Shown here in pieces: positions 22,763 to 58,710 of a stretch of 64,000 bases of DNA. Source of the DNA: Tenacibaculum dicentrarchi (GTDB lineage: Bacteria; Bacteroidota; Bacteroidia; Flavobacteriales; Flavobacteriaceae). The first letter of the stretch is position 1. The number at the start of each line of letters is the position of its first letter. The position numbers and the translations under genes are program-made. The notes beneath the pieces are model-generated. The model ran no database searches. It was not told the origin of the DNA and saw only the letters and a program-made list of their open reading frames with translations. The stretch lies in contig NZ_OZ038524.1 in the NCBI RefSeq assembly GCF_964036635.1, positions 1,097,501 to 1,161,500 on the forward strand, written 5' to 3'.

Positions 22763-22887
22763 ATGTTATCAAGAAAGGCGGAGGGATTAGACCCTATGAA
22801 GCCTTAGCAACCCTTTGTTTAAGTCAAAGAAGGTGCTAAATTCTACTTAATTTTAGATTCATTTATCTAAAATTGGATAGATAACTA
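22763..22887 (+). promoter_or_regulatory. SAM-I (S-box) riboswitch controlling metY, the MetX-AK-HSDH fusion and metZ
   Basis: The conserved S-box core is plain: AAGAAAGGCGGAGGGATTAG, then ACCCTATGAAGCCTTAGCAA, then AAGGTGCTAAATTCTACT. The closing helix P1 pairs GTTATC (22765-22770) with GATAAC (22880-22885). A P4 hairpin TTTTAGAT/ATCTAAAA lies before the 3' strand. SAM binding should shut off the downstream methionine genes. Confidence 0.93.
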
Positions 22888-39204: not shown

Positions 39205-39362
39205 ATGTTATCAAGAAAGGTGGAGGGATTAGACCCTAAGAAACCTTAGCAACCCTTTATTTGGAAATTTTAAAACTTTTTAAATTTCCAAATAAAGAAG
39301 GTGCTAAATTCTACTTAAAAACTGTTTCATTAAAAAATACAGCTTTTTAAGAGAGATAACGG
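39205..39362 (+). promoter_or_regulatory. SAM-I riboswitch controlling metH
   Basis: The same S-box core as at 22763 (AAGAAAGGTGGAGGGATTAG, CTTAGCAACC, AAGGTGCTAAATTCTACT), with P1 pairing GTTATC (39207-39212) and GATAAC (39355-39360). P3 is much longer here: CTTTATTTGGAAATTT pairs with AAATTTCCAAATAAAG. Bases 39120-39204 hold a weak -7-like TTAATTTG at 39168-39175. Confidence 0.93.
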
Positions 39363-50351: not shown

Positions 50352-50398
50352 AGTGGTTTTTGGTTAATGAATAATTTGATTTTTTGAAAAATATAATG

Positions 50399-50430
50399 AA
50401 ATCCCGTGCTTTTTGGTGCGGGATTTTTTT
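50399..50430 (+). terminator. Terminator of the leucine operon
   Basis: AAATCCCG (50399-50406) pairs with CGGGATTT (50419-50426), extended by wobble pairs, followed by T7. Confidence 0.8.
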
Positions 50431-50585: not shown

Positions 50586-51305
50586 ATGAATAAAAAGCTA
50601 TTTAGCGCCGTATTTTTTTTACTTATTTTAAATGCTTATAATGGCTTTTCTCAAGAATGGAAAAATTTAAGAAGCTACAAAAAAGTAACCAATAAAAATA
50701 TCCTTTGTAAAGGCTGTTGGCTTAAAAAAGACAGAAAAAGAAATACAAAAATCTGGGAAAAAGCTAATACCTATAATCTTTCTATAAATGACGGTTATTT
50801 AAAATATCAAAAAATAAGTCAAATTCGTGATTTTTATCGATGGTTTGATAAGGCTCGAAAAAAGAACGGACACGAAATAATTTCCGTAGGAATAATGGCT
50901 ATCGTGGCAACGCAGTTTTCTAAAATTGATAATTATTTTATTCGGAAAATTATTATCAGAAATAAAGAAATTATTTGGTTTGCAAATCAAGGCTCTAAAA
51001 ATGTGTTGAAATATTATTTTCCACTCCTTAAAAATATTCTTTTTTCTGAAAAAATACTAAAAGGAGAACAAGCAAAACAATGGGATGTTAAAAACACGAA
51101 AATAGAACAATGTGAAATTGTAACACCTCTTTATGAAAAGTTATCAGCTAAAGCAGCACGTAAATTAGGACGAATGGCGAAAGGTAAAGGTCTTTTTTGT
51201 TTTGGAGTAAAAAAAGAAATACGCTTTGAAGGAAATATTGAAAGTTGCCAATCAAAATATGAACATGCGCTGTTTAAATTAAGAAAATATTACTTAAATC
51301 AATAA
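50586..51305 (+). CDS. Secreted protein of unknown function
   Basis: A 239-residue protein with a signal peptide (cleavage likely after about residue 22, GFS-Q). The mature part is basic, with a CxxC at 41-44 and further cysteines at about 174, 211 and 226. I do not recognise the family. It is monocistronic between the leu and ilv operons, with a short AT hairpin (51304-51321) after its stop. Confidence 0.6.
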   Translation: MNKKLFSAVFFLLILNAYNGFSQEWKNLRSYKKVTNKNILCKGCWLKKDRKRNTKIWEKANTYNLSINDGYLKYQKISQIRDFYRWFDKARKKNGHEIISVGIMAIVATQFSKIDNYFIRKIIIRNKEIIWFANQGSKNVLKYYFPLLKNILFSEKILKGEQAKQWDVKNTKIEQCEIVTPLYEKLSAKAARKLGRMAKGKGLFCFGVKKEIRFEGNIESCQSKYEHALFKLRKYYLNQ

Positions 51306-51507
51306 AAAACACCTGTTTTTTAGTCGCTACTTTATTTTATATCTAAAAAAAAACTATTATAAATTATAATATACTTTGTAATTAGTCACATTTGGTTAAT
51401 TTACAAGAAAAAAAAGTTAAAATTATTGCTTAAATTAAGAATTTCGTAAAATATGTGTTTTATCTAAAATATTGATTTTTATTTAGGATAATTTAATAAA
51501 AAACACG

Positions 51508-51515
51508 CATCTTTG
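51508..51515 (+). promoter_or_regulatory. Probable -7 box of the ilv operon leader
   Basis: CATCTTTG matches TAnnTTTG except for the first base and ends 9 bases before the leader ATG, so the leader peptide would start within a few bases of the mRNA 5' end. Bases 51322-51507 show nothing else. Confidence 0.4.
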
Positions 51516-51524
51516 CGATATTAA

Positions 51525-51587
51525 ATGAAAAAACAAATTTTAAATATTATTTCTATTATTGTCGTTGTGATTATTTCACAAGGATAA
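51525..51587 (+). CDS. ilv leader peptide (attenuation control)
   Basis: A 20-codon open frame MKKQILNII...IISQG and TAA contains seven Ile, three consecutive Val and one Leu codon, 11 of 20 residues being branched-chain. It lies upstream of ilvDBNCA and 27 bases before a strong terminator hairpin, the arrangement known from enterobacterial ilv attenuators. The stop codon adjoins an anti-terminator segment. The product is expected to have no function of its own; ribosome stalling at its Ile/Val codons would be the sensor. Confidence 0.8.
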   Translation: MKKQILNIISIIVVVIISQG

Positions 51588-51648
51588 GGAAGTGTATTTT
51601 ATTTTTTATAAATTAAAAAGCTTCCTATTTTAGGAAGCTTTTTTTGTT
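51586..51648 (+). terminator. ilv attenuator: anti-terminator segment and terminator
   Basis: The terminator stem is perfect over 13 bp (AAAAAGCTTCCTA 51615-51627 with 51631-51643), loop TTT, then a T-run. Its 5' arm CTTCCT (51621-51626) can instead pair with AGGAAG (51587-51592), which overlaps the last base of the leader stop codon. A ribosome finishing the leader would cover AGGAAG and let the terminator form; one stalled at Ile/Val codons would leave it free. Confidence 0.8.
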
Positions 51649-51936
51649 AGCCATATAATATATGAGTTTTTAAATAAAAAGCTATGTATTTGTTAATTAC
51701 TGTTTTTATAGCAGGAATTTAAAGTATTGAATAGTATATAATTTAATTGGTAATTAGTTGTTTTTTAGCTGGTTGTGTTTTTGATTAAGCTGTTGAGTAT
51801 CATTAAATAATCAGAAAAAAGATAGTTATTAAAATACAATAAAATAATTTTGATTATCCACTTTAACAATAGTAATAATTGCTTTAAAAAGTATAAGCAG
51901 TACGATTTAGATTAAAAGAGATTAAAAAGAAATAAA
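51649..51936 (+). other. Long leader between the ilv attenuator and ilvD
   Basis: A gap of 288 AT-rich bases. A tiny frame at 51684-51722 codes for 12 residues, six of them Leu/Ile/Val, but no terminator follows it. No other promoter or hairpin stood out. Confidence 0.4.
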
Positions 51937-53616
51937 ATGAAATTAAACAAACACAGTAGCAGGTTAACACAAGACGAATCGCAACCAGCTTCTCAAGCAA
52001 TGCTTTATGCCGTGGGTTTAACCGAAGAAGATATGAGTAAAGCTCAAGTCGGAATTGCAAGTACAGGATATGACGGAAATCCGTGTAATATGCACTTGAA
52101 TAATTTGGCATCAGAAGTTAAAATTGAAACAAAAATTGCAGGTTTAGTCGGTTTGGGTTTTAATACAATTGGTGTTTCTGATGGAATTTCTATGGGAACT
52201 TCAGGAATGAATTATTCATTAGCGTCAAGAGATGTTATTGCCGATTCTATTGAAATAGTCATGAACGCACAGAGTTACGATGCACTAGTTTCCGTAGTTG
52301 GTTGCGATAAAAATATGCCTGGTGCTGTTATTGCCATGTTGCGTTTAAATCGTCCGTCAATTATGATGTACGGCGGAACAATCGCTTCAGGGAATTATAA
52401 AGGAAAAAAATTAAATATTGTATCGGCATTTGAAGCTTTAGGACAAAAAGTTGCAGGTGAAATTGACGAAGACGAATATAAAGAAATTATCAAAAGAGCT
52501 ATTCCTGGGGCAGGAGCTTGTGGCGGAATGTACACCGCAAATACTATGGCTTCGGCAATTGAATGTATGGGGTTTTCATTACCGTATAATTCGTCAATTC
52601 CTGCGGAAAATCCGAATAAATTATCCGAAGCTGAAAGAACCGCTTTGGCAATTAAAAATTTATTAGAATTAGATTTAAAACCGTTGGATATTATCTCTAA
52701 AAAATCCATAGAAAATGCCATTGCACTTGTAAATGCTTTGGGAGGTTCGACCAATGCGGTATTGCACTTTTTAGCAATTGCTCACGCTGCTGATATTGAT
52801 TTTACCTTAGATGATTTTCAAAAAGTAAGTGATAGAACTCCATTAATTGCCGATTTAAAACCTTCAGGAAAATACTTAATGGAAGATGTACATTCGGTTG
52901 GAGGAACCCCTGCAATTATGAAATATTTGTTAGATAATGGCTATTTACATGGCGATTGTTTAACAGTTACAGGAAAAACATTAGCAGAAAATTTAGCCGA
53001 TGTTACACCAATGGAATTTGAAGCACAAGATGTAATTCATCCGAAAGATAAAGCGTTAAAAACATCAGGAAATATTCAAATAATTTATGGGAATTTAGCT
53101 GTGGAAGGAGCTGTCGCTAAAATTTCAGGGAATGAAGGATTACTTTTTGAAGGAAAAGCTGTCGTATATAATAGCGAGCAAGAAGCAAATACAGGAATAT
53201 CAAACGGAGAAGTTGAAAAAGGTGATGTTGTTGTTATTCGATATGTTGGCCCAAAAGGAGGACCAGGAATGCCTGAAATGTTAAAACCAACATCATTAAT
53301 TATGGGTGCAGGTTTAGGAAAATCGGTCGCATTAATTACCGATGGTCGTTTCTCTGGAGGAACACACGGTTTTGTGGTAGGACACATAACACCTGAAGCA
53401 CAATCAGGAGGAAATATCGCACTTTTAAAAACAGGTGATAAAATTAAAATTAGTGCCGAAGATAACTCAATAAATGTTTTACTTTCTGAACAAGAATTAG
53501 CAGATAGAAGAAAAAAATGGGTTGCACCAGAATTAAAACACAAAAAAGGAATTCTATATAAATACGCAAAATCAGTAGCATCAGCATCAAAAGGATGTGT
53601 TACCGATGCTTTTTAA
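51937..53616 (+). CDS. ilvD: Dihydroxy-acid dehydratase
   Basis: A 559-residue Fe-S dehydratase for the Ile/Val pathway. Cluster cysteines C50 (GNPCNMHL), C123 ([10 protein letters not shown]) and C195 ([14 protein letters not shown]) are all present, as is [20 protein letters not shown] near the C-terminus. It is the first structural gene of ilvDBNCA, downstream of the attenuator. Confidence 0.96.
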
Positions 53617-53627
53617 TCCCTGAAATT

Positions 53628-55361
53628 ATGAATACAAAAACACAAACACAGCCTAAAACAGTATCAACAGAAAAAGTACATATTTCAGGAGCAGAAGCCG
53701 TTGTAAAATGCTTACTTGAAGAAGGAGCAGATGTAATTTACGGGTATCCTGGCGGTGCAATTATGCCTGTTTATGATGAACTGTATAAATATGAAGACAA
53801 AATAAATCATGTTTTAACTCGACATGAACAAGGAGCAACACACGCTGCGCAAGGTTTTGCAAGAGCAACAGGAAAAGTAGGAGTAGCACTAGCAACTTCA
53901 GGACCTGGAGCGACCAATTTAATTACAGGAATTGCTGATGCACAAATAGATTCTACGCCAATGGTTTGCGTAACAGGGCAAGTAGCATCACATTTATTAG
54001 GGTCTGATGCTTTTCAGGAAACTGATATTGTTGGTATTTCAACGCCTGTAACCAAGTGGAATTATCAAATTACAAAAGCTTCTGAAATTCCTGAAGTTTT
54101 TGCAAAGGCTTTTTACATCGCAAAATCAGGACGACCAGGACCTGTTTTAATTGATATTACTAAAGATGCTCAGTTTGAAACCTTCGATTTTGAATATAAA
54201 AAATGTACTTCTGTACGTAGTTATAAAGCAAAACCAGCGGTTGAAATAACGCAAGTTCAAGAGGCAGCTAAATTAATAAATTCGGCTAAAAAACCATTAA
54301 TTGTTTTCGGACAAGGCGTTATTTTAGGACAAGCAGAACAAGAATTTAAAGATTTTATTGAAAAAGCAAATATTCCATCGGCTTGGACAATTTTAGGGTT
54401 ATCAGCATTGCCAACAGAACACCCGTTAAATGTTGGAATGGTTGGAATGCACGGAAATTATGCACCCAATAAATTAACCAATGAATGCGATGTTTTAATT
54501 GCCATAGGAATGCGTTTTGATGACCGTGTTACTGGCGATTTAAATAGATATGCAAAACAAGCAAAGGTTATTCATTTTGAAATAGACCCAGCCGAAATCG
54601 ATAAAAATGTAAAAGCTGATGTGCCTGTTTTAGGCGATGTTAAAGAAAGTTTAGCCGAAATTTTACCGCTAATCAACCAAAATAAGCATGATAAATGGCT
54701 GGAAGAATTTACAAAATTAGAAGCGATTGAATATGATAAAGTAAAAAAAGAAGATTTATTTCCATCAAAAGATGGTTTAACTATGGCGGAGGTTTTAAAG
54801 GAAATAAATATCGCTTCTGGAGGTGATGCCATTATTGTTTCTGATGTTGGGCAACACCAGATGTTCACCTGTCGTTATGCCAAATTTAACAAAACAAAAA
54901 GTAATATTACCTCTGGTGGATTAGGAACCATGGGATTTGCATTGCCTGCCGCAATTGGGGCGAAAATGGGAGCGCCAGAAAGAGAAGTTGTAATGATTGC
55001 TGGTGATGGTGGTTTTCAAATGACCATTCAAGAATTAGGAACTATCTTACAAAATAAAACAGCGGTGAAAATTGTGGTGCTTAACAACGAATTTTTAGGG
55101 ATGGTTCGTCAATGGCAACAACTATTTTTTGATAAAAGATATGCATCAACAGAAATGACAAATCCTGATTTTGTGGCAATCGCAAAAGGATATAGCATTG
55201 ATGCGAAAAGAGTTACCAAAAGAGAAGATTTAGCAAGTAGCGTTAAAGAAATGATGGCATCAAAAGATGCTTACTTTTTAGAGGTTTGCGTAGAAAAAGA
55301 AAATAATGTGTTTCCGATGATAGAAACAGGAGCATCAGTTTCAGATATAAGATTATCGTAA
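53628..55361 (+). CDS. ilvB: Acetolactate synthase large subunit
   Basis: A 577-residue TPP enzyme making acetolactate and acetohydroxybutyrate. GYPGGAIMPVYDEL and the TPP glutamate in TRHEQGATHAAQGFAR mark the N-terminal domain. The C-terminal TPP motif runs from GDGGFQMTIQEL to VLNN. The frame is open upstream to 53595 inside ilvD, but ATG 53628 starts after the ilvD stop and is preferred. Confidence 0.95.
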   Translation: MNTKTQTQPKTVSTEKVHISGAEAVVKCLLEEGADVIYGYPGGAIMPVYDELYKYEDKINHVLTRHEQGATHAAQGFARATGKVGVALATSGPGATNLITGIADAQIDSTPMVCVTGQVASHLLGSDAFQETDIVGISTPVTKWNYQITKASEIPEVFAKAFYIAKSGRPGPVLIDITKDAQFETFDFEYKKCTSVRSYKAKPAVEITQVQEAAKLINSAKKPLIVFGQGVILGQAEQEFKDFIEKANIPSAWTILGLSALPTEHPLNVGMVGMHGNYAPNKLTNECDVLIAIGMRFDDRVTGDLNRYAKQAKVIHFEIDPAEIDKNVKADVPVLGDVKESLAEILPLINQNKHDKWLEEFTKLEAIEYDKVKKEDLFPSKDGLTMAEVLKEINIASGGDAIIVSDVGQHQMFTCRYAKFNKTKSNITSGGLGTMGFALPAAIGAKMGAPEREVVMIAGDGGFQMTIQELGTILQNKTAVKIVVLNNEFLGMVRQWQQLFFDKRYASTEMTNPDFVAIAKGYSIDAKRVTKREDLASSVKEMMASKDAYFLEVCVEKENNVFPMIETGASVSDIRLS

Positions 55362-55372
55362 TTATAGAAAAC

Positions 55373-55894
55373 ATGGAAAATAAACAAACATATACCGTTT
55401 CTGTTTATACAGAAAATAATGTAGGATTGTTGAATAGAATTTCAGGAATCTTTTTAAGACGAAATATCAATATTGAAAGCATGAATATTTCTAAATCAGA
55501 AATAAAAAGCGTTTCAAGAATTACATTGCTTGTAAAAGTATCCGAAGAACAAATTAAAAAAATCATCAGGCAAATTGAAAAACAAGTTGAGGTGATTAAA
55601 TCGTATTATCATACCGATGAAAATACGATTTATCAAGAATCTTGTTTGTTTAAATTAAGTTCAAAGTCGTTGCTTGAAAATGATGAAATTCAAACAATTA
55701 TAAACAGTAGTAAATCGAGAGTTATCAATATCAATAAAGATTTTTTTGTGCTTGAAAAATCAGGAACAAAAGAAGAAATTGAAGCTTTATATCATACTTT
55801 AGATAAACATGGAATTATGCAGTTTGTGCGTTCAGGGCGTATTGCAATTACCAAAGATGAAATGAGGATTTCAAACTTATTATCAGTGAACTAA
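55373..55894 (+). CDS. ilvN: Acetolactate synthase small (regulatory) subunit
   Basis: A 173-residue ACT-domain subunit giving valine feedback control. SVYTENNVGLLNRISGIFLRRNINIESM is the N-terminal ACT core; a second, C-terminal domain follows. Eleven bases after ilvB. Confidence 0.93.
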   Translation: MENKQTYTVSVYTENNVGLLNRISGIFLRRNINIESMNISKSEIKSVSRITLLVKVSEEQIKKIIRQIEKQVEVIKSYYHTDENTIYQESCLFKLSSKSLLENDEIQTIINSSKSRVININKDFFVLEKSGTKEEIEALYHTLDKHGIMQFVRSGRIAITKDEMRISNLLSVN

Positions 55895-55925: not shown

Positions 55926-57443
55926 ATGGCAACAAATTATTTCAATACATTATCGTTAGCAGGCAAATTAGAACAATTAGCAAAATGCAGATTTATGGAA
56001 GCTTCAGAATTTTCTGAAGGTGTAAAAGCATTAGAAGGAAAAAAAGTAGTTATTATCGGTTGTGGAGCACAAGGTTTAAATCAAGGTTTAAACATGAGAG
56101 ATTCAGGTTTAGATGTTTCTTACGCGTTACGTAGCGCAGCAATTCAAGAAAAAAGAGCCTCTTTTAAAAATGCTTCTGAAAATAATTTTAATGTTGATAC
56201 TTTTGAAGCCTTAATTCCTACTGCCGATTTAGTCTTAAATTTAACGCCAGATAAACAGCACACAAGAGTTGTAAATACGGTAATGCCTTTAATGAAAAAA
56301 GGTGCTACTTTATCGTATTCGCATGGTTTTAATATTGTGGAAGAAGGAATGCAAATCCGTGAAGATTTAACTGTAATTATGGTAGCTCCAAAATGCCCTG
56401 GAACAGAAGTAAGAGAGGAATATAAAAGAGGTTTCGGTGTGCCAACTTTAATTGCAGTTCACCCAGAAAATGACCCTGAAAATAAAGGCTGGGCTCAAGC
56501 AAAAGCATACGCAGTGGCAACAGGAGGACACAAAGCAGGAGTTTTAGAATCGTCATTTGTGGCTGAGGTAAAGTCAGATTTAATGGGTGAACAAACTATT
56601 TTATGTGGTGTTTTACAAACGGCTTCAATTTTATCTTTTGATAGCATGATTGAAAAAGGAATTGAGCCTAGTTACGCATCTAAATTAATTCAATACGGTT
56701 GGGAGGTGATTACCGAAGCTCTAAAACATGGAGGAATTACCAACATGATGGATCGTTTATCAAACCCTGCAAAAATTAAAGCTTTTGAAATTTCAGAAGA
56801 GTTAAAAACAATTATGGCGCCGTTGTTTGTAAAGCATATGGACGATATTATGTCGGGGCATTTTTCTAAAACAATGATGGAAGACTGGGCAAATGACGAC
56901 GTAAATTTATTGTCTTGGAGAGCCGAAACAGGTAAAACATCTTTTGAAAAAACAGCAGCTACATCTGCAGAAATTAGCGATCAAGAATTTTTTGACCACG
57001 GAACTTTAATGGTTGCCTTTGTAAGAGCAGGAGTAGAGTTAGCTTACGACAACATGGTAGCGTCAGGAATTAAAGCAGAATCGGCTTATTACGAATCGTT
57101 ACACGAATTGCCTTTAATTGCAAACACGGTTGCTAGAAAAAAATTATACGAAATGAACCGTATTATTTCTGATACTGCTGAATATGGCTGTTATTTATTT
57201 GACCACGCCGCAAAACCATTATTAGTTGATTTTATGAAAACTGTTGATACCAATCTTATCGGTAAAGCGTTTAAAAATTCAGTGACAAATTCGAACGAAG
57301 TCGATAATTTAGCGTTAATCGCTGTAAATACGGAAATTCAAAATCATCCGATTGAAGCAATTGGTAAAACACTAAGAGCATCAATGACGGCAATGAAAAC
57401 AATAACTCAAGAACAAGAAAAAGAAGCCGTAGTTTTTCATTAA
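55926..57443 (+). CDS. ilvC: Ketol-acid reductoisomerase (class II, long form)
   Basis: A 505-residue NADPH enzyme. The Rossmann motif GCGAQG at 45-50 and downstream [23 protein letters not shown] are typical. The duplicated C-terminal knotted domain gives the length expected for the E. coli-like class II. It lies 31 bases after ilvN. Confidence 0.95.
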
Positions 57444-57447
57444 AAAT

Positions 57448-58710
57448 ATGCAAACACAAACCATATATTCACCAACAATAAAAGCGGTAAGGGAGGCTGT
57501 AGCTACACTAAAAGGTGTGGCTATAGAAACTCCGCTATTAAATAATTATATTTATTCTGAAAAATATAACGCAAATATTTTCTTAAAAAGAGAAGATTTA
57601 CAACAGGTAAGATCGTACAAAATTAGAGGCGCTTATAATAAAATGAACTCGGTAACACAAGTACAACGAGCAAACGGAATTGTTTGTGCAAGTGCTGGAA
57701 ACCATGCGCAGGGAGTTGCTTTTGCGTGTAAAAAACTTCAAATTCACGGTACAATTGTAATGCCAGCACCTACGCCAAAGCAAAAAGTAGCGCAGGTAAA
57801 AATGTTTGGTGGCGATTATGTTGATATTCAATTATCGGGCGATACGTTTGATGATGCTTATAAATATGCAAAAAATATTTGCGATACTTTAGAAAAAACA
57901 TTTGTGCATCCTTTTGATGATCAAAAAATTATTGAAGGACAGGCAACCGTTGGTTTAGAAATTATCGAGCAATCTAAAGAAATTATTGATTACGTATTTG
58001 TTCCCGTAGGCGGTGGAGGCTTGGCATCTGGGGTGTCGAGTATTTTTAAATTATTGTCACCAACAACTAAAGTTATCGGCGTAGAACCAGCAGGAGCAGC
58101 GTCTATGAAAACTTCGATTGAGGCAAATAAAAATATAAAATTAGCTAAAATTGATAAATTTATTGATGGTGCGGCAGTACAACAAGTAGGGAATTTAACC
58201 TTCGATATTTGTAAAGAAAATTTACACGATATGATTACCGTTCCTGAAGGAAAAGTATGTCAAACAATTTTAGATTTATACAACAGAGAAGCCATTGTGG
58301 TAGAACCTGCAGGAGCGTTAACTATAACAGCTTTAGATTTTTTTGCCGAAGAGATTAAAGGTAAAAATGTTGTTTGTGTAGTTAGCGGAAGTAATAACGA
58401 TATTGCTAGAACTGCCGAAATTAAAGAACGTGCCTTATTATATAGTGAATTAAAACATTATTTTATCATTCGATTTCCGCAAAGAGCAGGTGCGTTAAAA
58501 GATTTTTTAATGGATGTTTTAGGTAAAAATGACGACATTACTTTTTTCGAATATTCTAAAAAATCGAGTAAAGAAAATGCACCAGCCGTGGTTGGAATTG
58601 AATTGGTAAAAAAAGAAGATTTAGCGCCTTTAATTGCAAGAATGAAAGCGCTTAATTTCTATGGAGAATATTTAAATGATAAACCTAATTTATTTGAATT
58701 TTTGGTTTAA
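57448..58710 (+). CDS. ilvA: Threonine deaminase (threonine ammonia-lyase)
   Basis: A 420-residue PLP enzyme producing 2-oxobutanoate for isoleucine. PLP lysine K58 is in RSYKIRGAY; SAGNHAQGVAFAC and VGGGGLASGVSS bind cofactor. One C-terminal ACT-like regulatory domain (YFIIRFPQRAGALKDFL and on, about 335-420) instead of the two of E. coli. It starts 4 bases after ilvC and ends the operon. Confidence 0.94.
   Translation: MQTQTIYSPTIKAVREAVATLKGVAIETPLLNNYIYSEKYNANIFLKREDLQQVRSYKIRGAYNKMNSVTQVQRANGIVCASAGNHAQGVAFACKKLQIHGTIVMPAPTPKQKVAQVKMFGGDYVDIQLSGDTFDDAYKYAKNICDTLEKTFVHPFDDQKIIEGQATVGLEIIEQSKEIIDYVFVPVGGGGLASGVSSIFKLLSPTTKVIGVEPAGAASMKTSIEANKNIKLAKIDKFIDGAAVQQVGNLTFDICKENLHDMITVPEGKVCQTILDLYNREAIVVEPAGALTITALDFFAEEIKGKNVVCVVSGSNNDIARTAEIKERALLYSELKHYFIIRFPQRAGALKDFLMDVLGKNDDITFFEYSKKSSKENAPAVVGIELVKKEDLAPLIARMKALNFYGEYLNDKPNLFEFLV

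Follow-up and report, generated by a model that had tools for sequence, protein, structure and literature searches.

The window, i.e. the whole 64,000-nt stretch of DNA analysed here, carries an Ile/Val operon with a short frame upstream that is rich in Ile and Val codons. The question is whether this frame and the hairpins around it form a switch that senses the two amino acids. As judged by NCBIfam matches above curated cut-offs, the operon runs on the forward strand in the order ilvD (51937-53616; NF002068 and TIGR00110), ilvB (53595-55361; TIGR00118), ilvN (55373-55894; TIGR00119), ilvC (55926-57443; NF003557 and TIGR00465) and ilvA (57448-58710; NF006390 and TIGR02079), which confirmed that the leader stands ahead of ilvDBNCA as an earlier, sequence-only reading had it. 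Folding models and comparison with relatives indicate that the leader very probably acts as a ribosome-mediated transcription attenuator of the trp/ilv type, sensing Ile and Val before ilvDBNCA. The translation-coupled Ile/Val attenuator of the sequence-only reading is well supported: relatives conserve both the leader frame and the matching arms.

Leader frame and terminator upstream of ilvD

The leader frame occupies 51525-51587 on the forward strand, as do all features of the switch, from an ATG at 51525 to a TAA stop codon at 51585-51587, and encodes the peptide MKKQILNIISIIVVVIISQG. Reading and translating the sequence confirmed the 20-codon Ile/Val-rich frame: 11 codons specify Ile, Val or Leu (seven Ile, three Val and one Leu), and the three Val codons are consecutive (GTC GTT GTG). 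Beyond it lies a predicted intrinsic terminator (the 3:4 hairpin, 51615-51645) with a stem of 51615-51627 and 51631-51643, a TTT loop, seven T residues at 51639-51645 and a predicted energy of -14.8 kcal/mol. Both a dedicated scan and RNAfold recovered it, and the perfect 13-bp stem reported earlier was found intact at 51615-51643. An automated terminator scan over 50900-52300 reported no terminator, probably because the A-U base of the stem consumes the T-tract that is required after it.

The segment AGGAAG (51587-51592), which takes in the last base of the stop codon, is complementary to CTTCCT (51621-51626) in the 5' arm of the terminator. The proposed pairing of the two segments was borne out by RNAfold, which predicted an antiterminator (the 2:3 hairpin, 51587-51626; -10.0 kcal/mol) of 7 bp between 51587-51593 and 51620-51626, with inner helices between 51597-51605 and 51610-51618. 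The window holds a single attenuator unit, and no second one was seen upstream of ilvD. Two other features lie upstream: a 239-aa frame at 50586-51305, between leuB and the ilv leader, has no NCBIfam match, and a terminator-like hairpin after leuB (50398-50427) was paired by the scan with an Ile-rich frame that overlaps leuB and is probably due to chance.

A structured leader followed by a terminator would also suit regulation by a riboswitch or T-box, in which a ligand or tRNA is sensed independently of translation. This explanation is extremely improbable, as no Rfam family reached its gathering score on the leader and what is conserved is an open frame rich in Ile and Val codons. Even at a relaxed threshold nothing credible appeared on the leader, the best match being Phe_leader at 37.3 bits (cut-off 55).

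A third hairpin and the modelled switch

The sequence-only reading had reduced the system to two competing hairpins. This was not borne out, as RNAfold of 51519-51601 predicted an additional leader (1:2) hairpin at 51542-51599 with 23 pairs and -17.9 kcal/mol. Its first strand (51542-51570) lies within the Asn-Ile-Ile-Ser-Ile-Ile-Val-Val-Val codons, while its second strand (51576-51599) passes through the stop codon and AGGAAG and shares 51587-51593 with the antiterminator. Since the 1:2 hairpin also sequesters AGGAAG, the locus has the predicted anatomy of a full three-hairpin design.

Stalling was modelled with an assumed ribosome footprint of 11 nt past the A-site codon. The antiterminator stayed in the predicted fold for every ribosome position from codon 5 to codon 17, a range that takes in all 11 Ile/Leu/Val codons. 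The energy of the free RNA was -10.0 kcal/mol with the ribosome at codons 11-16, -9.7 at codon 17, -1.7 at codon 18 and -1.1 at the stop codon. Under the assumed footprint, the modelled switch point is hence codon 17/18, directly past the last Ile codon.

What the sequence itself shows is the frame, the predicted hairpins and their recurrence in relatives; the start site, translation of the leader, termination and its response to amino-acid supply are inferred. According to the folding model, RNA polymerase would start just upstream of the leader ATG. When charged Ile- and Val-tRNAs are ample, the ribosome would reach the stop codon and cover AGGAAG, and the terminator would form. When Ile or Val is short, the ribosome would stall on such a codon and disrupt the 1:2 hairpin; AGGAAGT would then pair with the 5' arm of the terminator, and the polymerase would continue into ilvDBNCA. 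If no ribosome is present, the 1:2 hairpin would keep AGGAAG and termination would be the default.

Recurrence of the unit among relatives

We compared 110 ilvD loci, comprising 30 from the window's genome and genomes labelled as the same genus (the best 30 matches; 41 of 59 genomes matched) and 80 from named records (the best 80 of at least 591 confirmed stretches). Among the named records listed, the window's ilvD is closest to that of Polaribacter and similar Flavobacteriaceae (88-91%). A unit was defined as an open frame 10-40 codons long that contains an Ile/Val/Leu-rich run and is followed by a terminator 5-60 nt past its stop codon. Up to 900 nt upstream of ilvD, the finder gave 59 units in 51 loci, against two units in two loci on the reverse strand and none in two dinucleotide-shuffled sets. 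Extending the search to 1500 nt and imposing a score floor gave 91 units in 75 of the 110 loci, against one reverse-strand locus, although some loci offer less than 1500 nt of upstream sequence. The number of loci rose from 51 to 75 because the units in some of them lie roughly 1000-1500 nt upstream, e.g. in Tenacibaculum (L040), Chitinophaga (L083) and Chryseolinea (L087). In L025-L029 and L040 the unit precedes a gene that resembles, by eye, a branched-chain aminotransferase. Chance could in principle place an Ile-rich frame beside an unrelated terminator in an AT-rich intergenic stretch, where AT richness makes Ile codons frequent, but the nearly empty reverse-strand and shuffled controls leave this explanation a negligible probability.

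Units are present in 49 of the 80 named-record loci, 47 of them under titles that we assigned to Bacteroidota taxa. The finder reported no unit in 35 of the 110 loci, including the close relatives L004 and L018. Loci outside the 75 also include L022 (score 5.9, under the floor), L071, which by eye has a leader and a terminator that fails the T-tract rule, and L019, which has a degenerate copy without an ATG. The records behind five loci (L045, L072, L076, L089 and L104) bear titles of Ignavibacteriae, Thalassovita, Planktophila or Planctomyces; their ilvD is 63-69% identical to that of the window, and the labels may be wrong. In some GC-richer leaders with Gly-rich ends (GGGV, GGGW; L085, L088, L106 and L107), the antiterminator strand seems, by eye, to lie inside the frame.

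The frame could alternatively be a free-standing small gene, equipped with a promoter and terminator of its own, that merely sits upstream of ilvD and makes a functional hydrophobic product such as a small membrane peptide. In favour of this are the hydrophobicity of the peptide and the NIIS core, which does not vary among 18 different 20-codon leaders that had been selected for containing it. Beyond NIIS, however, the leaders share composition and not sequence (34 representatives with less than 60% peptide similarity), and they precede the Ile/Val operon in the 75 loci. The conservation of NIIS can also stem partly from pairing with the strand past the stop codon. Across ten Polaribacter-type leaders, 94.6% of cells show pairing between the NIIS codons and this strand, against 34-68% in slid versions; 5 of 500 shuffles reached 94.6%. 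A small gene is therefore very improbable, and the attenuator remains the preferred reading.

The sequence-only reading had proposed an alignment of relatives as a check, looking for conserved leader frames and compensatory changes in the pairing segments. Leader frames and matching arms are conserved, but two-sided compensatory changes are few in close relatives: one pair among the ten Polaribacter-type leaders, which 92 of 500 shuffles reach, and 2 of 11 pairs among nine window-type leaders. Pairing is on average preserved within each arm class, apart from the exceptions described below.

Folding tests across loci

For the folding, arm-swap and codon-swap tests, one unit of the 900-nt set (L070) was judged spurious and removed, leaving 58 units in 50 loci. 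Compared with synonymous recodings, the 1:2 hairpin of the window has a z value of -4.5. Among the 34 representatives, the mean z value of leader folding was -1.92, with 32 below zero and 17 at p<0.05. The 58 units gave a mean z of -1.69 when codons were drawn from the ilvD of each locus and -1.55 when they were drawn from all leaders, with 21 units at p<0.05 in either case. These predicted folds indicate that coding alone does not explain the stability of the 1:2 hairpin.

In the stall model, the energy gained from the 5' arm of the terminator had a mean over the 91 units of -7.65 when the ribosome stood on the middle Ile/Leu/Val codon and of -0.45 when it stood on the stop codon; the corresponding means with foreign terminators were -4.37 and -0.54. 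Values of at most -4 at the control codon together with at least -2 at the stop codon were obtained for 84 of 91 units, versus 125 of 273 with foreign terminators; among the representatives the proportions were 30/34 versus 47% of controls. This energy test replaced a pair-count stall scan that was too permissive, as 76 of 91 units passed it versus 59-70 of 91 in ten control runs. The window itself failed the pair-count scan because of A-U pairs at the stop codon.

When terminator arms were swapped, own arms paired at a mean of -9.04 versus -5.81 for arms of other classes, and 27 of the 58 units ranked in the best 5%. The exceptions are the CTCCC class (6 units) and the CCTCC class (1 unit), which pair no better with their own arm.

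Promoter boxes and a possible second promoter

A -7-like promoter box, CATCTTTG (51508-51515), ends 9 nt upstream of the leader ATG. It differs in its first base from the consensus TAnnTTTG as given in the text of PMC9723704, and hence has no TA. From this box, the leader RNA would be expected to start at about 51519-51522, a few nucleotides before the ATG. Among the 75 first-or-only units, 46 have TA(n0-2)TTTG at most 30 nt upstream of the start codon, while the background is 240 of 4400 windows; the box of the window is not among the 46.

A second conserved block lies between the terminator and ilvD (51793-51852), consisting in the window of TTGAGTATCATTA (51793-51805) and TAATTTTG (51845-51852). 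In an alignment of 31 loci of our choice, the elements TTGARYATCAT and TAATTTAG/TAATTTTG are conserved in close relatives, and 25 of 30 close relatives have a box of the TAATTTAG/TAATTTTG type at most 110 nt from ilvD, a count made without a control set. The block may be a second, attenuator-independent promoter that bypasses the switch. The attenuator could then be real but minor, with most ilv transcript starting near 51845-51852 under other control. In keeping with this, the TTGARYATCAT/TAATTTTG block is also present in the attenuator-less loci L004, L018 and L032. Nevertheless, the three-hairpin anatomy is maintained in distant lineages, and Flavobacterium-type loci have their terminator 35-41 nt before the ilvD match and therefore little room for a second promoter. 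We thus consider a minor role unlikely and retain the attenuator as the probable control of ilvDBNCA. The first motif of the block, searched for as TTGARYATCATWA, was also considered as a regulon-wide site and rejected; it has 10 matches in the genome versus 3 for the reversed control, and all nine besides the one in the block fall within frames 90 or more codons long.

The points that we counted against the attenuator are the imperfect box of the window, the promoter-like block downstream, the 35 of 110 loci without a unit, the scarcity of two-sided changes, the arm-swap exceptions and the pair-count scan.

Tandem units

Two units in succession are carried by 16 of the 75 loci (L012, L020, L024-L030, L037, L040, L045, L054, L056, L061 and L086), with 61-87 nt from the first stop codon to the second start codon. 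None of the 16 second units has a TA(n0-2)TTTG box within 30 nt, and therefore they are presumably transcribed from the start of the first unit. In 11 of the 16 loci the own pairings beat both cross pairings; in L025, for instance, own pairings of -8.6 and -13.0 compare with cross pairings of -5.9 and -2.4. L029, L030, L045, L054 and L056 each have one strand for which the other unit's arm is a better partner than its own.

Valine codons and tRNAs

The three different Val codons in a row had been taken to suggest selection for particular tRNAs. A bias towards GTC proved to be real across loci, whereas particular tRNAs are not the obvious reason, because one Val anticodon (TAC) alone was detected. 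GTC accounts for 116 of 266 leader Val codons in the 75 loci versus 22.3 expected from the ilvD of each locus, and for 46 of 115 Val codons in the 34 representatives. In the leaders of the 75 loci the Ile codon ATA is avoided (57 of 605 versus 126.2 expected).

In the window's genome, ARAGORN found tRNA-Val solely with anticodon TAC (three genes). The search behind this result yielded 56 matches, with scores computed for 150 of the 286 first-look candidates, and this genome probably lacks a GAC tRNA. The Flavobacterium genome behind L077 gave one tRNA-Val (TAC) among the 30 of 41 matches examined, with 150 of 475 candidates scored. A search of 13 genomes with a GAC-tRNA pattern, run without a positive control, gave no tRNA-like match by eye.

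We also considered the 1:2 hairpin as the cause of the GTC preference and rejected it. When the four Val codons were swapped at each position, GTC was optimal for the hairpin in 25 of 70 cases, GTG in 23 of 24, GTT in 12 of 22 and GTA in 9 of 34, so that the hairpin fits GTG well and GTC poorly. In the selective-charging theory, as presented in PMC1183508, leader codon bias is explained by differences among isoacceptors. Our own proposal is that weak wobble reading of GTC might be the source of the bias.

Other possible switches in the same genome

A similar layout was found upstream of hisG (L167, just above position 1585159 of the genome), where a leader with a His run, MNFNQLHHHHHICTQAN, is followed by a terminator. 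Its predicted antiterminator has -15.5 (full) with the ribosome at codon 9, -11.2 at codon 10, -6.0 at codon 11 and -4.5 at codon 12. In this model the antiterminator fades at the end of the five-His run (codons 7-11), which suggests a his attenuator in the window's genome. A GTG-started frame, VLNNRTNIISLPIVAPTINSVGLIISTIIISIIIITL, lies before an aspartokinase-family gene (L168, about 1550300-1550558); it is Ile-rich with some Thr codons, and no clear terminator was seen by eye after it. The window also contains two SAM riboswitches on the forward strand (22763-22887 and 39205-39362), the sole Rfam matches at gathering score in the window.

Implications and comparison with known systems

A wider reading of these data is that an ilv attenuator exists in much of Bacteroidota, near-leaderless in Polaribacter-type loci, repeatedly in tandem under one promoter and with GTC favoured though one tRNA (TAC) reads all Val codons. 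We offer it tentatively, as a possibility that we rate at somewhat below even. If it is true, codon choice would rest on weak U34:C decoding and not on selective charging of isoacceptors, and ribosomes would have to trail RNA polymerase closely in Bacteroidota. Leader-peptide attenuation requires the ribosome and RNA polymerase to be in step. With attenuator anatomy at 75 of 110 ilvD loci, their coupling can be tested directly in a phylum in which most translation initiation dispenses with Shine-Dalgarno sequences. The GTC bias together with one detected Val tRNA offers a natural test of control-codon sensitivity, with no isoacceptors found to compare, and tandem Ile/Val attenuators would test if two serial switches deepen repression.

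Little description of peptide attenuators in Bacteroidota was known to the sequence-only reading. No ilv leader of Bacteroidota was found described in the papers that our literature search covered; a comparative study, Lopatovskaya 2010 (Mol Biol 44:128), may have dealt with this phylum. For attenuation in general, PMC9723704 had already noted 'strong clues' of control by leader peptides upstream of amino-acid operons in Flavobacterium psychrophilum. Those leaders are alike in belonging to the same bacterial family and to amino-acid operons, while the part of that report considered here gives no ilv leader, hairpins or tandem units. It also gives 5.5% leaderless mRNAs for F. psychrophilum and states that Shine-Dalgarno sequences are absent. 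For B. thetaiotaomicron, the text of PMC7366714 describes small frames 'reminiscent of leader peptides'. In 2010, the authors of PMC2965389 stated in the part of their paper drawn on here that, until they had their own case from Firmicutes, they knew of no leader-peptide system beyond Proteobacteria and Actinobacteria.

With the enterobacterial trp, his, ilvGMEDA and ilvBN attenuators, the locus shares a leader rich in control codons, 1:2, 2:3 and 3:4 hairpins and a terminator before the structural genes (PMC1183508, in part, and general knowledge of these systems). Unlike in those systems, the leader ATG of the window would lie a few nucleotides from the RNA start, behind a putative Bacteroidota-type promoter, and AGGAAG follows immediately on the stop codon; the comparison is one of layout and not of sequence relation.

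The Corynebacterium ilvBNC attenuator, as described in the portions of PMC11857589 and PMC10272879 used here, is likewise near-leaderless, with transcription starting one nucleotide from the leader ATG. It has an Ile/Leu/Val-rich leader and terminator, antiterminator and anti-antiterminator hairpins, and the C. glutamicum leader also has three consecutive Val codons. It differs in phylum, sequence and operon order, and it has been tested by mutation, whereas the attenuator of the window is predicted from sequence and folding.

The tandem loci resemble the mgtCBR leader of Salmonella, in which two short frames each form an attenuator, according to the portion of PMC3641672 considered here. The mgtCBR frames sense different signals (ATP and proline), whereas in the 16 tandem ilv loci each of the two frames is rich in Ile and Val codons and has a terminator after it. 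By its anatomy, the ilv attenuator of the window is of the classical kind, attenuation having been suggested previously in Flavobacteriaceae, and it is the clade-wide features that are of interest. The tandem ilv units and the GTC bias are new observations here and the features most worth following.
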